Shown here in pieces: positions 24,787 through 36,495 of a stretch of 64,000 bases of DNA. Numbering within the stretch: the first letter of the stretch is position 1; every line of letters begins with the position of its first letter. This stretch comes from Clostridiaceae bacterium (GTDB taxonomy: Bacteria > Bacillota > Clostridia > Saccharofermentanales > DTU023): the NCBI GenBank assembly GCA_012838795.1, contig DUOO01000031.1, positions 1 through 64,000 of the forward strand, given 5' to 3'. The notes under the pieces were generated by a model, which saw nothing but the letters and a program-made list of their open reading frames with translations, had not been told where the DNA came from and did no database searches. A program made the translations under genes and the position numbers.

Positions 24787-26094
24787 TTAATAAGTATCAA
24801 GATATTTTGTAGCGGCCAGTGTTACCGGATGACCTTTTTTCGAGCGTTGCCTTAAAGACAATCTTACTTCTTTCAAACATATTTTCATCGCAAGATTTAA
24901 ATCTTCTTCTGCAGCTTCTCTAATTATATCTAAATTTGCAAACGGTCTGCCATATTCTATTTTATCTGCCAGATAAATTATTTGATCCAATTTCGTCATC
25001 TTTTGCCTTGATGTTGTATGAAAAATCAATGCATCAAGAATATCTCGATCGGTAATGCCTAAATAACGATGAATATACCAAGCTCCGGCAGGTCCATGTG
25101 CAATATTTTTATTAAGCGGCTTCAGTTTGCCCGTTTTTTTTGCAAAACGATATTGTTTTTCAATTTTCATAGATTTAGCAATATCATGCAAAATTCCTGT
25201 CACCGCTGCTTTCATCAAATCAAAATTGTGAATTGTCGCAAGATGAACTGCGTATTGCATAACATTCAAAGAATGGGTCAGTCTGGAACGTGATACATTC
25301 TTTCGTACTTCTTTTTCGTATACAGCAAGCTGAATTAATTGTTCTCGATTCAATTGTGCCATCTCATCATTGAAAACATAAATTTTGTTATTATTAATAT
25401 ACTGACAAACAGCCGGGGGAATTTTGTTTTTTTGTTTTTTATCCAGCTTCAGTTTTTCACGCAATTCTGTAGACGAAATATCAGTTTCTTCAATATCAAA
25501 GAAATCAATATGAGCTTGGTATTTTGCTCTCAAATAATTTGCTCGTTCATTCATGTGTTTTATTTCTTCGGATCCCCGACGACAAATTAATAAACCGGCC
25601 TTTTTCATGATTTCTTCAGGTTCATACCAGTTTTCAATTGTATCTAAGGCATCTGAACCATAAACCAGATATATTTTTACCTTTACGTTCTGCAAGTTTT
25701 TAAGACTTACGGCATCTGTTCTGTATTTAGTTTTTTTACCTCTGGGAACCCTTAGTTTAGTTAATTTCTTTAATTCTTCGTTAATATATTCGTTATATAT
25801 TTTTTGCTTATAATAATCAATTGTATCAACTGTATATGAATATTGACCCGGACGATTAATTTCATAATCACTAAGAGTTAACCCAGGTAAATCTTTAATG
25901 CCTAATCTCGTCATTTCATAACGATAACCGGAAGGAGTCATATATTTATCTTTATGAGGTGCTAAGCCTAAAGGCATAACAATTATCTGATCGAATTTAT
26001 TTAATTTAAGTAAGCCTTCAAGAACCTTTTTATGTCCGTTATGAAACGGATCAAACGATCCTCCGTAAATTGCTATTTTTATCTTATTAGCCAA
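24787..26094 (-). CDS. nadD: NadD-YqeK fusion: nicotinate-mononucleotide adenylyltransferase plus HD-domain phosphohydrolase
   Basis: A 435-residue fusion. Residues 1 to about 225 are NadD, which adenylates nicotinate mononucleotide in NAD synthesis: GGSFDPFHNGHKKVLEGL and DISSTELREKL are the nucleotide-binding motifs. An insert of about 35 residues rich in Lys/Arg interrupts the middle. Residues about 250-435 are a YqeK-type HD domain (HSLNVMQYAVHLA, GILHDIAKSM, FHTTSR); YqeK enzymes hydrolyse diadenosine tetraphosphate. In Bacillus these are separate neighbouring genes. rsfS follows, as in many Firmicutes. Confidence 0.92.
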   Translation of the reverse strand: MANKIKIAIYGGSFDPFHNGHKKVLEGLLKLNKFDQIIVMPLGLAPHKDKYMTPSGYRYEMTRLGIKDLPGLTLSDYEINRPGQYSYTVDTIDYYKQKIYNEYINEELKKLTKLRVPRGKKTKYRTDAVSLKNLQNVKVKIYLVYGSDALDTIENWYEPEEIMKKAGLLICRRGSEEIKHMNERANYLRAKYQAHIDFFDIEETDISSTELREKLKLDKKQKNKIPPAVCQYINNNKIYVFNDEMAQLNREQLIQLAVYEKEVRKNVSRSRLTHSLNVMQYAVHLATIHNFDLMKAAVTGILHDIAKSMKIEKQYRFAKKTGKLKPLNKNIAHGPAGAWYIHRYLGITDRDILDALIFHTTSRQKMTKLDQIIYLADKIEYGRPFANLDIIREAAEEDLNLAMKICLKEVRLSLRQRSKKGHPVTLAATKYLDTY

Positions 26095-31080: not shown

Positions 31081-31110
31081 AACCCCGCTTTTTTTCTTTG
31101 AATTGCGTAT
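31081..31110 (+). promoter_or_regulatory. Candidate SigI-type promoter upstream of sigI
   Basis: AACCCCG (31081-31087) followed by a T-rich spacer and CGTA (31106-31109), 23-26 bases before the sigI start codon. Known SigI promoters of Bacillus have a -35 like ACCCCC, often followed by T-rich sequence, and a -10 like CGAA about 16 bases later. Here the spacer is 18 and the -10 has one mismatch. SigI genes are usually autoregulated, which is why this site is suggested. A sigma-A -10 (TATACT at 31108-31113) overlaps it. Confidence 0.4.
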
Positions 31111-31131
31111 ACTGTATATGAGGAAAGAATA

Positions 31132-31857
31132 ATGCAAAATGAACATGAAATTGTACAACAAGTTTATGCTGCTAAAGAAGATAATTTTGCTGCGGATGTT
31201 TTTATTGATAGCTACAAACCCTTCATTAAAGCTGAAACTGCCAAATTTTTGAAAAGACCAACCGATGATCAGGATGATGAATTAAGCATTGCGATGATTG
31301 CTTTTTATGAAGCGATTAATCAATACTCTCATCTTAAAGGATCATTTATCAGCTTTGCCTCGCGCATGATCAGAAATCGTCTTATAGATTACTGGAGAAA
31401 AATCAAACGTCATACCGGACTGGTAGAACTTGATGCTCCGATCGTTAATGAAGAAGATACTACCTTAATAAATACCGTGCGGGATGAAAAGAATAAAACT
31501 GAGGAGTTAATCAATCGTGAAGCTACCGTAGCGGAAATTCAAGAATTATCCAGGCAGATGTCCGATTTCAATATATCTCTTTCCGATGTTGCCGACAACA
31601 ATCCACGGCAAAAAAGAACATTAATAGCTTGTCAAAATGCTGCTGCTGCCGCAATTAATGATGAAAGAACGATGACTCAATTTTTTAAAAACAGAAAATT
31701 ACCGATTACCAGAATTGCCGAATTAAGTCAGGTTGCAAAAAAAACTTTAGAAAGACATCGTGATTATATTATAGCTCTATTGATTATATACAGTAACGGT
31801 TATGATTTGATTCGTAATCATCTCGATCAAGTGAAAATTGTGAAAGGAGAACGCTAA
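31132..31857 (+). CDS. sigI: RNA polymerase sigma factor SigI
   Basis: A 241-residue alternative sigma factor. Region 2 is clear: DELSIAMIAFYEAINQYSHL and GSFISFASRMIRNRLIDYWR. A long charged linker follows, and the C-terminal helix-turn-helix-like part (ITRIAELSQVAKKTLERHRDY) is the SigI-type region that replaces sigma-4. In Bacillus SigI handles heat and cell-wall stress; in cellulolytic Clostridia sets of SigI factors respond to polysaccharides. rsgI starts one base after its stop, as always in this pair. AGGAAAG precedes the ATG. Confidence 0.93.
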   Translation: MQNEHEIVQQVYAAKEDNFAADVFIDSYKPFIKAETAKFLKRPTDDQDDELSIAMIAFYEAINQYSHLKGSFISFASRMIRNRLIDYWRKIKRHTGLVELDAPIVNEEDTTLINTVRDEKNKTEELINREATVAEIQELSRQMSDFNISLSDVADNNPRQKRTLIACQNAAAAAINDERTMTQFFKNRKLPITRIAELSQVAKKTLERHRDYIIALLIIYSNGYDLIRNHLDQVKIVKGER

Positions 31858-31858
31858 A

Positions 31859-33031
31859 ATGAAATATATTGTAATCGAACAATGTAAAACCTACGCCGTT
31901 CTGCTTAGTGAAAATGGTCAATTTTATAAAGCTGCCGACCTGAATTACGAATTAGGTGAAACTGTTCAAAATCCCGTTTTAATGAAAAACAAGTTATCCT
32001 CAAGTTTAGATCTCAAATGGTACAAATTTAAGAATAATTTGAAAAATTCAAGAATGCGATCGGTTATAGTCAGTTTAGCTTTGGTTTTGATACTCATAGT
32101 CGGAGGTTTCGGCGGTTTTTATTATCGGGAAAATTATCTGATAACCAAGTCATCAATTATTATACAAATCAATCCTCGAGTAGAAATGGGGCTAAATTCC
32201 AAAGGATCGGTTATTAATTTAAAAAGTTTGAATCCGGACGGTGAAAAATTGCTGGAAGACTATAAATTAATCAGTAAAGACAAAATTGAAGTAACTAACG
32301 ATTTAATCAAAAGAGCTCAGGATATGAATTTTCTTCAATCGGGCGGTAAAGTTACTCTGGGTATTAACGCAAAAGATGATCATATTTTTGCAGAATTAGG
32401 AACTGAATTACGTCAAAAAATAACTCCGAATAATATTATCATTGAAATAATCAGAGTTAAAAATTTAGAAGAATCGGATTATAGATCGGCTCCGAGTAAT
32501 TACAAAACTGAATTTACAATTGGCCAAAAAAATACTGAAGAAACAACAGCATCTGAGAACACCAATCAAGACAAAACAAATCCGACTAAAACAATTGTTC
32601 CCGGTAAAACTACACCTACATCATCTTCTGTTATAAAACCTACAGCGGTTCAACCGACAACAACAAAACATACTGTGACTCGATCAACAACAAGTAACGA
32701 TGATACCGATTATGATGATACCGATTATGATGTTACCGATTATGACAATACCGATTACGGTGATTCAAATTATATTGATAATTCTGATTATGGCAGTTCA
32801 ACTAATATTGAAATAACCGGAACTACTACTGATAATACTATTAAAACAAGTACTAAAACTACTGACTCTACTACTACATCTACTGATGATAGTGATTATA
32901 TTGACGACAGCGATTATATTGATGACAACGATAATATTGACGACAACGATAATATTGACGACAGCGATTATATTGATGACAGCGATTATATTGATGATAA
33001 TTTATATCACGACTCTTTATATGATGATTAG
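31859..33031 (+). CDS. rsgI: Anti-sigma factor RsgI with an Asp/Tyr repeat extracellular region
   Basis: A 390-residue single-pass membrane protein. Residues 1-60 are the cytoplasmic RsgI_N domain that binds SigI (YAVLLSENGQFYKAADLNYE). A membrane segment spans about 67-88. Residues 95-200 are the conserved outer domain (SIIIQINPRVEMGLNSKG, LNPDGEKLL). The rest is unusual: a Thr-rich linker (226-280), DDTDY-type repeats (281-312), a second Thr-rich linker and a DDSDYIDD repeat block (343-390). Other RsgI proteins carry carbohydrate-binding modules there; none is seen. It presumably holds SigI until a surface signal triggers cleavage. It ends one base before the stop of the convergent next gene. 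Confidence 0.9.
   Translation: MKYIVIEQCKTYAVLLSENGQFYKAADLNYELGETVQNPVLMKNKLSSSLDLKWYKFKNNLKNSRMRSVIVSLALVLILIVGGFGGFYYRENYLITKSSIIIQINPRVEMGLNSKGSVINLKSLNPDGEKLLEDYKLISKDKIEVTNDLIKRAQDMNFLQSGGKVTLGINAKDDHIFAELGTELRQKITPNNIIIEIIRVKNLEESDYRSAPSNYKTEFTIGQKNTEETTASENTNQDKTNPTKTIVPGKTTPTSSSVIKPTAVQPTTTKHTVTRSTTSNDDTDYDDTDYDVTDYDNTDYGDSNYIDNSDYGSSTNIEITGTTTDNTIKTSTKTTDSTTTSTDDSDYIDDSDYIDDNDNIDDNDNIDDSDYIDDSDYIDDNLYHDSLYDD
32885..33010 (+). repeat. 18-bp coding repeats in rsgI
   Basis: About six to seven tandem copies of an 18-base unit close to GACAGCGATTATATTGAT, encoding D-S-D-Y-I-D with D-N-D-N-I-D variants. The copies are nearly identical at DNA level, so the number could vary by slippage. 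A related 15-base array encoding DDTDY lies at 32699-32760. Confidence 0.82.
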
Positions 33032-33032
33032 T

Positions 33033-34772
33033 CTATAAACGCAAAATATCGCAAACTGTAAACGATGCTCTGCGAATCGTATCAAGTTCAAATGGTGAAG
33101 AAAAACCGCTAATCAGAAGTCTTTTAACAAAAGGCAGATCCGTATTCGAGGTTAATAATTTATTCAATTTGGTCTCCAAACGATTGCGTTTATCGCGATG
33201 CGGTCTTTCTGCCAGAATTACTATCAAAGCTAAAACACGATTAAGAGCACTGAAAGGTTTGTCAAAAATTCGCTGAACCAACTGCCATGAATTCCCTTCA
33301 GAAAAATAACCGTCAGATCCATAATCATAATTAATGTTCAGATTTTGTTCAATTTGTTTCCATAAATTTGCATAGTTAAGGTCATTATCAGACTCTGCTG
33401 AATAAACCGTTGCTTCAAAGGTATCGATCGCCATAGCTTTGGGTATTTTCAAAATCTCATAGCATAAGCTTAAATCATTAAATAATTCCGCATTTTCACC
33501 GGCAAATAGTTCTGTTTTACGAGAACTCAAAAAAACCATTGCCAAACCGGAAATCTTACGAACCAAATCAGATTGAACATAACAGGCAATACCCTTAAAA
33601 TTGATCATCGCACTAAGGTCGGCTAAAGCTTTACCTATACTGTAAAAATCATCTTCCAGGATAAAAGCCGGACGAGAAAATGATAATGATAAATAAACAG
33701 AATTCCATTTCGGCAATAATGTAACATCACGTTCTAACTCTCTGCGCAAACGAGGTTCCGATGTCCAAAATTTACCTCTGATCAGATTATCAACATATGA
33801 CCCCTCATCACCGATGATTTGACGAATTGTTTCACCAAATACATTTTTAACAGAAACATCTTTATTGATTAAATTAAAGCGACTTTCAGGTAATAATTTC
33901 AGGTGATCATAGTAAAAATTAATCTCTTTGTGCAAACGCTGATTGCGCAAGGATGTTATTTCCTCAATCAGCGGTAAAAAATATTCTTGTAAATACTTCT
34001 TAAAAAGAATTAATTGTCTTCTGGTATATCCATATCCCTTGTTTTTCGATGTCACAAAATCAAAACAAGTCAGATTGCTTTGTTCAGCTTGTTTTTTGCG
34101 AATAATTACTAATTCACGAAAGTCGTGATTGCGTTCTTCTGCAAATCCAAGTAATTTCTGGCTGAAATTATGATAAATTTGTATTCTGGTTTCGGCATCC
34201 GCCAATCTGAACCAATTATTTATTTCTTCAATATAAATATCAAATGATTTCGGATCCTGAGGGTCCGAATACGAGAAATTCCCCGGTTCATATGTTTCTA
34301 CATTAATCGCTATGTTTTTAATAAAATTGCGATTTGCATCAATCAATTGATGTTCCCGATCCAGCAGATCTTTGTCGACTTTCGCCTCAGTCAAAGCTAT
34401 TCTGCGTGCTTCGTTAATAATCGAAGAACGTGACAATGCATCATCCGCAAATTGAATATCAAGATCTGCAATCATTGCAAATACCTGATTATAACAAGTC
34501 TGTAATTCAGAAATTTTTTCTGAAAACAGTTCATATTCAGCAAAGAAATCTATTGAATTATCATTGTCATTTTTAATGTATCTTAAGATTGAGCACAAAT
34601 TATACATTGAAACGAAATTAAGATACTCTTCAGAAAATTGCTCAAAAAGCAATTTGATTTTTTCAGCTTTCAGAGTAAATTTTTTCAGTTGCTTATGCAA
34701 GTCTCGACAAACACGAGAAATCTTGTCGAAATCTGGTCTAACATATTTTAGATCTGAAAAATTTTCTGTCAT
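33033..34772 (-). CDS. M3-family oligoendopeptidase homologue lacking the zinc site (pseudo-peptidase)
   Basis: 579 residues, matching the M3 oligoendopeptidase subfamily not of PepF type in length and in landmarks: YFLPLIEEITSLRNQRL, a helical middle, and TELFAGENAELFND followed by IPKAMAIDTFEATVY. The zinc motif expected as HExxHAL reads YSIGKAL at residues 377-383 (33624-33644): both histidines and the catalytic glutamate are replaced, and the later glutamate ligand region reads VRKISGLAM. It should therefore not be a metallopeptidase. The frame is fully open, so it is maintained. The ATG at 34772 lies 4 bases after argS; a TTG at 34799 is less likely. Confidence 0.8.
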   Translation of the reverse strand: MTENFSDLKYVRPDFDKISRVCRDLHKQLKKFTLKAEKIKLLFEQFSEEYLNFVSMYNLCSILRYIKNDNDNSIDFFAEYELFSEKISELQTCYNQVFAMIADLDIQFADDALSRSSIINEARRIALTEAKVDKDLLDREHQLIDANRNFIKNIAINVETYEPGNFSYSDPQDPKSFDIYIEEINNWFRLADAETRIQIYHNFSQKLLGFAEERNHDFRELVIIRKKQAEQSNLTCFDFVTSKNKGYGYTRRQLILFKKYLQEYFLPLIEEITSLRNQRLHKEINFYYDHLKLLPESRFNLINKDVSVKNVFGETIRQIIGDEGSYVDNLIRGKFWTSEPRLRRELERDVTLLPKWNSVYLSLSFSRPAFILEDDFYSIGKALADLSAMINFKGIACYVQSDLVRKISGLAMVFLSSRKTELFAGENAELFNDLSLCYEILKIPKAMAIDTFEATVYSAESDNDLNYANLWKQIEQNLNINYDYGSDGYFSEGNSWQLVQRIFDKPFSALNRVLALIVILAERPHRDKRNRLETKLNKLLTSNTDLPFVKRLLISGFSSPFELDTIRRASFTVCDILRL

Positions 34773-34776
34773 TGAA

Positions 34777-36495
34777 CTACATTCGCTCCACCGGATCAAT
34801 TCCGGCCAGTATCAAGCCGTTTTTGATGACTACACTAACAGCAAAAACTAATGCTAATCTCGCTTGACGTAAATTAATATCCTCTGTTTTCAGTATTGGT
34901 GTATTGTGATAAAAACGATTAAAGTTACGAGCCAGTTGAGATATTTTCCGCAGCATAATACTAGGCTCAAATTCTTCTGCGGCTTGGATCAGAACTTCAG
35001 GGTATTGGTACATATTCTTAATCAGTCCGAATTCATCATCTTCAGTTAATAAAGTAAAATCAAAATTATTAAATTCAACACAATTAAAATTCGCTTTTTG
35101 CAGAATACTCCTGGCTCTGGCATATGTATACATCAAATAAGGAGCAGTATCGCCTTCAAAATCGAGTATTTCCTCCCAATCAAACATGATATCATGTTCA
35201 CGACCATTTTTGAGATAAGTATATTTAACAGCTGCCAAACCAACCGCTTCAGCAGTTTGTTCAATTTCCGGTTTACTCATATCGGGATTATTCTTCGTGA
35301 TGATGTCTTTTGTCTTGGCTACACTTTGATCCAAAAGATCTTCCAACAAAATAATGTTGCCTTTACGTGTTGAAAAATCACCATCTTTGAACTTTACTGA
35401 ACCGAATCCGACATGAATATTCTGATCAGCTTTTGCAAAACCGGCTTTTTTCAACACGGCAAAAACCTGCTGAAAATGATTGGTTTGCGGCAGACCAACT
35501 ACATAAATGTTTTTATAATAATCATAAGTGCGATCTCGATAAAGAATAGCTGCAATATCACGTGAAGCATAAATTGTCGTGCCATCTGATTTCAAAATAA
35601 TACAAGGATTTAAGTTGAACTCTTCTAAATCGACGACTTGAGCGCCTCTGCTCTCTTGAAGTAAATTTTTAGTTTCCAGCATTTCAACAACTTCAGGAAT
35701 CAGATCTGAATAGAAACTCTCGCCATTATAATTATCAAAATTAATTTCCAATCTATCATAGAGACGATTAAATTCCAGCAAACTGTAATCTCTGAATTTT
35801 TGCCATAATTCAACTTCTGCCGGTTCTTTATTTTCAAGACGTTTAAAGGCTTCACGAGCTTGATCTTCCAATTCCGGTTGATCTTCAAGCACAGAATGAA
35901 ATTTGACATATACTCTGGTTAACTCGGCAATTGGTTCTTTTGCCAATGCAGCTTCATCTCCCCACAAGCGCCATGCTATGATCAATTTTCCAAATTGCGT
36001 GCCGTAATCACCAAGATGATTCATCCGAATCGTATTAAATCCCAAGGCATCATAAATATTACCGATCGCTTGTCCTAAAATTGTTGTATAAGCATGCCCG
36101 ACATGAAACGGTTTAGCAATATTAGGTGAAGAATATTCAACAATAACATTTCTTTGCTGGCCGATTTCTGATTTGCCATAATCATCCAATTCGGAAAATA
36201 TTGTCTTCAAGACAAGCGATGCATAATAACCGCGATTCAAATAAAAATTCAAATATGGTCCGATGACTTTGGTCTGTTCCAACCATTCAGGCATTGTCCG
36301 ATTTATTTTTTCACTGATCTCAGATGCAATCAAAGCCGGCTTTTTTTTAAATTCTTTTGCTAAACGGAAACACGGAAAAGCATAATCGCCCATATCTTCT
36401 TTAGGCGGAATTTCGATAAGAGCCGAAATCTCAGAAATTTCAAGCTCCGTTTGGTTTACAATCATTTCTGCTATTGCTAATCGAAAATCAAACAT
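34777..36495 (-). CDS. argS: Arginyl-tRNA synthetase
   Basis: Class I synthetase, 572 residues, normal length. The HIGH-type motif is in NIAKPFHVGHAYTTILGQ, the KMSKS region reads DFSTRKGN, and the anticodon-binding helical domain closes the protein (ARNFNRFYHNTPIL). The chosen ATG at 36495 overlaps the stop of the upstream nucleotidyltransferase gene by one base (TAATG). The downstream M3 homologue begins 4 bases after its stop, so the three genes form one operon. Confidence 0.94.
   Translation of the reverse strand: MFDFRLAIAEMIVNQTELEISEISALIEIPPKEDMGDYAFPCFRLAKEFKKKPALIASEISEKINRTMPEWLEQTKVIGPYLNFYLNRGYYASLVLKTIFSELDDYGKSEIGQQRNVIVEYSSPNIAKPFHVGHAYTTILGQAIGNIYDALGFNTIRMNHLGDYGTQFGKLIIAWRLWGDEAALAKEPIAELTRVYVKFHSVLEDQPELEDQAREAFKRLENKEPAEVELWQKFRDYSLLEFNRLYDRLEINFDNYNGESFYSDLIPEVVEMLETKNLLQESRGAQVVDLEEFNLNPCIILKSDGTTIYASRDIAAILYRDRTYDYYKNIYVVGLPQTNHFQQVFAVLKKAGFAKADQNIHVGFGSVKFKDGDFSTRKGNIILLEDLLDQSVAKTKDIITKNNPDMSKPEIEQTAEAVGLAAVKYTYLKNGREHDIMFDWEEILDFEGDTAPYLMYTYARARSILQKANFNCVEFNNFDFTLLTEDDEFGLIKNMYQYPEVLIQAAEEFEPSIMLRKISQLARNFNRFYHNTPILKTEDINLRQARLALVFAVSVVIKNGLILAGIDPVERM

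Follow-up and report, generated by a model that had tools for sequence, protein, structure and literature searches.

The sigI–rsgI locus described here is probably the half of a conserved SigI module that carries out regulation, with the outer tail of the anti-sigma factor RsgI reporting the state of a surface layer. This is the best explanation of what we find in the window, the whole 64,000-nucleotide stretch that was analysed, and in the genomes of its relatives. The same type of tail is found on a lipoprotein which, along with a CotH-type kinase, appears to be under the control of the switch, so that what the bacterium monitors is probably the condition of its own surface coat, to which the kinase is linked. 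At the level of sequence, the module, its promoters, the shared tail and the covariation of that tail with CotH are all established.

The sigI–rsgI pair and the RsgI exterior

The two genes are adjacent open reading frames (ORFs) on the plus strand, where the first-pass annotation had placed them: sigI (31132–31857), encoding a SigI-type sigma factor of 241 aa, and rsgI (31859–33031), encoding an anti-sigma factor of 390 aa that is recognized by its RsgI_M match and its same-genus orthologues. That annotation called both protein cores standard, which is right as to family and does not hold as to divergence. SigI matches Sigma70_r2 (E=1.4e-11) and scores 162.9 bits against TIGR02895 (spore_sigI), under the curated cut-off of 185, while RsgI gives a weak 17.2 bits against the cut-off of 25 for RsgI_N (PF12791), a family with no match in a whole-genome search of the window's genome. 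Gene order, the promoter, the SEAL fold and the Asn-Pro motif identify the two genes as a SigI/RsgI pair. An ORF of 588 aa on the minus strand (33033–34799) converges on rsgI, with 1 base between the stop codons, and sigI–rsgI is therefore a closed two-gene unit. Elsewhere in the window (24787–26094, minus strand), a NadD-like nucleotidyltransferase appears, by eye, to be joined to a YqeK-like HD domain in a single ORF.

An AlphaFold2 model of RsgI, built from 27 sequences, has confident cytoplasmic and SEAL domains and a disordered tail. The cytoplasmic RsgI_N-like domain (residues 4–36, 31868–31966) is modelled as a beta domain with pLDDT above 90, and a transmembrane helix (residues 66–94, 32054–32140) is predicted from the model and from the hydrophobicity of the sequence. 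The extracytoplasmic SEAL, or RsgI_M, domain (residues 98–201, 32150–32461) is matched by PF23750 over residues 100–201 (E=3.5e-17), and the closest solved fold to its model is that of Bacillus subtilis RsgI (8t9n, TMt 0.82). Within this domain, Asn105-Pro106 (32171–32176), the predicted autocleavage site, is invariant in both alignments; the Asn-Pro pair is present in 83/83 RsgI proteins and in 75/75 of the lipoproteins discussed below, and chain 8her_B of a Clostridium thermocellum RsgI structure starts at the Pro equivalent to Pro106. In the published RsgI mechanism, autocleavage is followed by RseP and ClpXP steps (PMC12203970), and by analogy with such relatives the window's RsgI may be expected to undergo autocleavage at Asn-Pro and intramembrane proteolysis. 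No Pfam domain was found past residue 201, and the window's RsgI is not of the CBM type, as it has no folded carbohydrate-binding or enzyme domain at its C-terminus.

The tail begins with a Thr-rich linker (residues 209–280, 32483–32698; pLDDT mostly 40–60), which leads into a first block of D-[ST]-x-Y repeats built of DDTDY units (residues 281–311, 32699–32791). A second Thr-rich linker (residues 312–342, 32792–32884) separates this from a second block of six DDSDYI/DDNDNI units (residues 343–378, 32885–32992), and the protein ends in an acidic C-terminus, DDNLYHDSLYDD (residues 379–390, 32993–33028), all of these on the plus strand. TRF reports a 15-bp array for DDTDY (32699–32757, 3.9 copies) and an 18-bp array for DDSDYI (32884–32997, 6.3 copies). 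[ST]DY occurs ten times in residues 202–390, as compared with a mean of 0.94 and a maximum of 6 in 10,000 composition-preserving shuffles, and Ser or Thr stands at position −2 of 13 of the 14 Tyr residues of the tail. The DDTDY and DDSDYIDD repeats between Thr-rich linkers that had been read from the RsgI exterior are thus borne out by the arrays and the shuffles.

The first-pass annotation itself named a tail that is random and unconserved in orthologues as evidence against its reading, and this objection fails, because the tail is conserved in orthologues: same-genus RsgI proteins, 64–74% identical in the matched part, keep the tail type while its length and repeat unit vary. DNA slippage alone was rejected as the source of the pattern, as the units differ between lineages (5-, 6- and 15-residue) yet [ST]-x-Y is kept. 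Pairwise codon differences among the units of the second block amount to 17 synonymous and 16 nonsynonymous. In two of its six units (32921–32956) DDSDYI reads DDNDNI, with Ser and Tyr absent together from the same units.

The lipoprotein–CotH genes and their SigI-type promoters

When the 2.09-Mb genome of the window is searched with the codon pattern for D[ST]DYxD, 21 matches are obtained, of which 5 lie in rsgI, 13 in tandem genes on contig C62, and 3 are isolated. The tandem genes encode two lipoproteins whose RsgI_M domains score 56.8 and 56.9 bits and whose repeats resemble those of the RsgI tail, and downstream of them, on the same strand, lie VTC, DUF4956 and CotH genes. The module is split in this genome, with sigI–rsgI in the window and the lipoprotein–VTC–DUF4956–CotH genes on C62. 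The outer layout of RsgI matches that of the lipoprotein, a SEAL domain plus a repeat tail, with a membrane helix replacing the lipid anchor.

Published SigI promoters have a C-rich −35 element and a CGAA or CGTA −10 element (PMC6056542). A SigI-type promoter with −35 ACCCC (31082–31086) and −10 CGTA (31106–31109), separated by a 19-bp gap, lies upstream of sigI at 31082–31113 on the plus strand, and by this motif sigI–rsgI appears to be autoregulated. Each C62 lipoprotein gene has upstream of it a SigI-type promoter spaced like that of sigI, and the pattern ACCCCR-N18-CGWANNCT has three matches in the window's genome, before sigI and both C62 lipoprotein genes, while its reversed control has none. 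In all 59 relatives taken together the pattern gives 43 matches versus about 26 in the control, so that lone matches elsewhere can be chance. Promoter matches at C1:1854 and in L234, which fall inside genes, were judged to be chance. SigI-type promoters are found near the start of 64 of 68 lipoprotein genes and 66 of 80 sigI genes (0 and 1, respectively, in reversed controls). More than one such promoter is common in the Oscillospiraceae-type loci L171–L196 and L201, many of which have two ahead of the lipoprotein gene, in many cases some 70 bp from each other.

The contigs of relatives' genomes were scanned with an RsgI alignment, which yielded 80 named loci, and genes were called there with home-made HMMs; as the scan was seeded with this RsgI type, these counts are no measure of its frequency among RsgI proteins at large. 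In 79 of the 80 Clostridia loci sigI is found beside rsgI. Among the 53 loci whose contigs extend 3.9 kb or more downstream, lipoprotein, VTC, DUF4956 and CotH genes are all present in 41, in part in 9, and not at all in 3, two of which (L122 and L123) are from the window's own genus. We read sigI–rsgI, the SEAL lipoprotein, VTC, DUF4956 and CotH as a conserved SigI module. Many Clostridia of the gut and of digesters carry it, including Faecalibacterium, Blautia, Flavonifractor, Gemmiger, Intestinimonas and others, and we found no published description of it in the open-licence literature. The phyletic pattern of DUF4956 was discarded as a marker of the module, being too noisy because DUF4956 also occurs outside it.

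The Ser/Thr-x-Tyr motif and its link to CotH

The first-pass annotation saw the key unit of the tail as an acidic aromatic array. Comparison of tails replaces this with Ser/Thr-x-Tyr, which is the conserved unit and is common to RsgI and the co-regulated lipoprotein. Ser or Thr precedes Tyr at position −2 in 83% of 645 Tyr residues in 83 RsgI tails (20% after shuffling) and in 79% of 1115 Tyr residues in 59 lipoprotein tails (14% after shuffling). Tripeptide similarity between tails is 0.41 within the same operon versus 0.27–0.28 between operons (0/20,000 permutations), and the distances among RsgI tails and among lipoprotein tails correlate given SigI distance (partial Mantel r=0.28–0.30; 7/5000 and 3/5000). 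At least two [ST]xY per 100 aa are present in 73/83 tails of the window type versus 0/29 tails of canonical RsgI from a class-wide survey, of which only 2 are net acidic. The conservation and distinctness of the tail support its assignment to a separate RsgI type, and partly bear out the earlier suggestion of a new SigI sensing type. The premise that clostridial RsgI sensors usually end in carbohydrate-binding or enzyme domains has to be corrected, as many end in disordered tails.

A simpler possibility is that RsgI is a generic wall-gap sensor, the tail being merely a polyanionic disordered rod through the peptidoglycan and its motif having no partner. For RsgI of B. subtilis, the disordered region has reportedly been proposed to thread the peptidoglycan as such a rod. 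The window's tail is likewise modelled as disordered, net acidity is nearly universal (82/83 RsgI tails and 59/59 lipoprotein tails), and lineages without CotH keep both an acidic tail and a promoter–lipoprotein unit. We consider this explanation unlikely, since a generic rod does not predict Ser or Thr at −2 of some 80% of Tyr residues across differing repeat units, nor the covariation with the lipoprotein tail, nor the loss of the motif with CotH, and the disordered tails of canonical RsgI do without the motif.

The link of the motif to CotH is seen in both kinds of tail. Lipoprotein tails encoded beside CotH have the motif in 59/59 cases, at a median of 7.4 per 100 aa, and those in genomes without module-type CotH in 0/6, with acidity no lower; this first comparison was made after motif-poor tails had been noticed, and the distinction between module-type CotH and the longer CotH proteins encoded in the L184 and L200 genomes was drawn post hoc. 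Under a stricter contig rule, set later, at least one motif per 100 aa is found in 69/71 RsgI tails with CotH and 0/7 without. The independent contrasts are few, and all 5 supported ones agree (5/5, sign test p=0.0625). The strict test omits L129, L133, L153, L164, L167, L170, L171, L175, L190, L112/L191 and L118, loci cut off by a contig end within the module or shortly beyond it; of these, L167, L190 and L118 would support the link, and L129, L133, L153 and L171 resemble counter-examples cut by the contig end. There are two exceptions. At L135, where CotH is present and the lipoprotein is motif-rich, the RsgI tail is poly-Asp and lacks the motif; at L122 there is just one core motif.

At five loci with CotH and without VTC or DUF4956 nearby, the lipoprotein keeps the motif. 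Genome G027 lacks VTC, DUF4956 and CotH between its lipoprotein and dehydrogenase genes, where its congener G029 has all three, and the RsgI and lipoprotein tails of G027 are Asp-rich, with neither Tyr nor [ST]xY. SigI promoter–lipoprotein units are kept without CotH in G027 and at L174, which indicates that the sensor can outlive the kinase. Where module-type CotH is missing, lipoprotein tails often consist of Asp/Trp repeats (DDDDW, DNDW) and not of [ST]xY, as at L174, L190, L118 and L200.

In the sequences compared, then, what tracks the module's CotH is the Ser/Thr-x-Tyr motif and not the acidity. Since the motif is lost with CotH while acidity stays, neither charge as such nor Ca2+ binding accounts for it, and acidic charge alone was rejected as its cause.

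The same evidence bears on the possibility, raised in the first-pass annotation for Ca2+, basic wall polymers or a mineral or fibre surface, that the acidic repeats bind Ca2+, another metal or a basic surface polymer, which RsgI would sense directly. Of all properties of the tails, their high Asp content varies least, and the Pel polysaccharide is cationic. The families CotH, polyphosphate polymerase and DUF4956 stand side by side as accessories of the Pel locus in some streptococci and clostridia (PMC7112168); unlike in those loci, the trio in the module follows a SigI promoter and a SEAL lipoprotein. We regard cation binding as very unlikely to be what the tail is for: it leaves [ST]xY and its CotH link unexplained, and no folded Ca2+-binding domain is predicted in the RsgI model. 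PelG occurs neither in the window's genome nor anywhere in the sampled family, being present in 3 of the 59 relatives, and no pel genes lie beside the C62 cluster; Pel was accordingly rejected as the ligand for the window's family.

CotH and the proposed circuit

The module CotH is homologous to CotH of known structure (5jd9/5jda). It has one N-terminal helix, predicted to be oriented N-in/C-out in 54/58 proteins, and the catalytic-type NxDG..HNY and PWDYN-type motifs are kept in 54/58. The CotH of B. subtilis acts as a Ser/Tyr kinase on CotG, where most of the phosphorylation falls in the tandem repeats (PMC9765600). The module resembles the CotH–CotB/CotG system in pairing a CotH kinase with a disordered tandem-repeat protein, and, as judged by genes and promoters, Ser-containing tandem repeats are co-regulated and encoded with CotH. 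CotG repeats, however, are basic, made in the mother cell and located in the spore coat, while those of the module are acidic and extracytoplasmic, and the module CotH, unlike the spore-coat system, has an N-terminal membrane helix and a domain predicted to be outside.

CotH proteins may act in assembly besides their kinase activity (PMC12484212), and the module could accordingly serve surface assembly, for example through Tyr cross-linking or fibres formed via [ST]xY, with CotH as assembly partner and RsgI reading the occupancy of the sites. Such a role would suit the long repeat lipoproteins, of which the window's genome has two, and the fact that within the motif Tyr is as constant as Ser/Thr. 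It seems distinctly unlikely given that kinase-type motifs are retained in most module CotH proteins, that a characterised CotH relative modifies repeat proteins (PMC9765600) and that the module shows neither an oxidase nor a cross-linking enzyme.

In the reading that we prefer, where the RsgI tail reports on the surface layer, SigI would transcribe its own operon and that of one or two SEAL repeat lipoproteins, a VTC-domain protein, a DUF4956 membrane protein and CotH. RsgI likely carries a membrane-tethered copy of the regulon's repeat protein, itself a likely CotH substrate. CotH would modify the tails of both, most likely by Ser/Thr and possibly by Tyr phosphorylation, and both kinds of tail would join the same surface layer or ligand, through which the RsgI tail could report the state of the layer. 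Altered modification, binding or mechanical load of the tail would then part the SEAL halves cleaved at Asn-Pro, and an RseP-type protease would cut the RsgI stub and free SigI. More lipoprotein and CotH would be made as a result, and the lipoprotein copies would compete for RsgI's partner and damp the signal. Phosphorylation of the tail, its ligand and this feedback logic are inferences. A fuller version of the circuit is tentative and rather doubtful: here RsgI would mimic the cell's own CotH substrate as a decoy, the output of an external kinase would be read into transcription via SEAL separation and proteolysis, and VTC/DUF4956 might supply a polyphosphate donor outside, where ATP is scarce.

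Other SigI–RsgI systems share parts of this design. That of B. subtilis has a SigI-type sigma factor and an RsgI with a SEAL domain (8t9n), the Asn-Pro motif and a long outer tail, but canonical RsgI tails lack the acidic [ST]xY repeats of the window type, and we know of no CotH–lipoprotein module in the B. subtilis SigI regulon. C. thermocellum RsgI has an autocleaving periplasmic domain and the RseP and ClpXP steps (PMC12203970), and its binding modules (CBMs) suit what the regulon handles outside, the signal being plant polysaccharide (PMC12484212). It has a CBM, PA14 or enzyme-like domain outside and serves a cellulosomal regulon, whereas the window's RsgI has a repeat tail that matches the lipoprotein. 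SigI/RsgI would gain a class of sensor directed at the cell's own surface product, not at an outside sugar. The CotH–VTC–DUF4956 genes, to which no role has been assigned, would gain a regulator together with a likely substrate and a regulon that can be tested, and the module offers a route into bacterial extracytoplasmic protein phosphorylation, a little-explored area.

The regulon may also extend beyond the module. A SigI-type promoter (ACCCC...CCGTAATCTAT) precedes the gene for a secreted CAP/SCP-like protein on contig C5 of the window's genome (G000; 70452, minus strand; L110), and a secreted CAP/SCP-like protein with a SigI-type promoter is found again in G052, from another family of the order (L235, 589). 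Going by these promoters, the CAP/SCP-like secreted protein is likely a further member of the SigI regulon.
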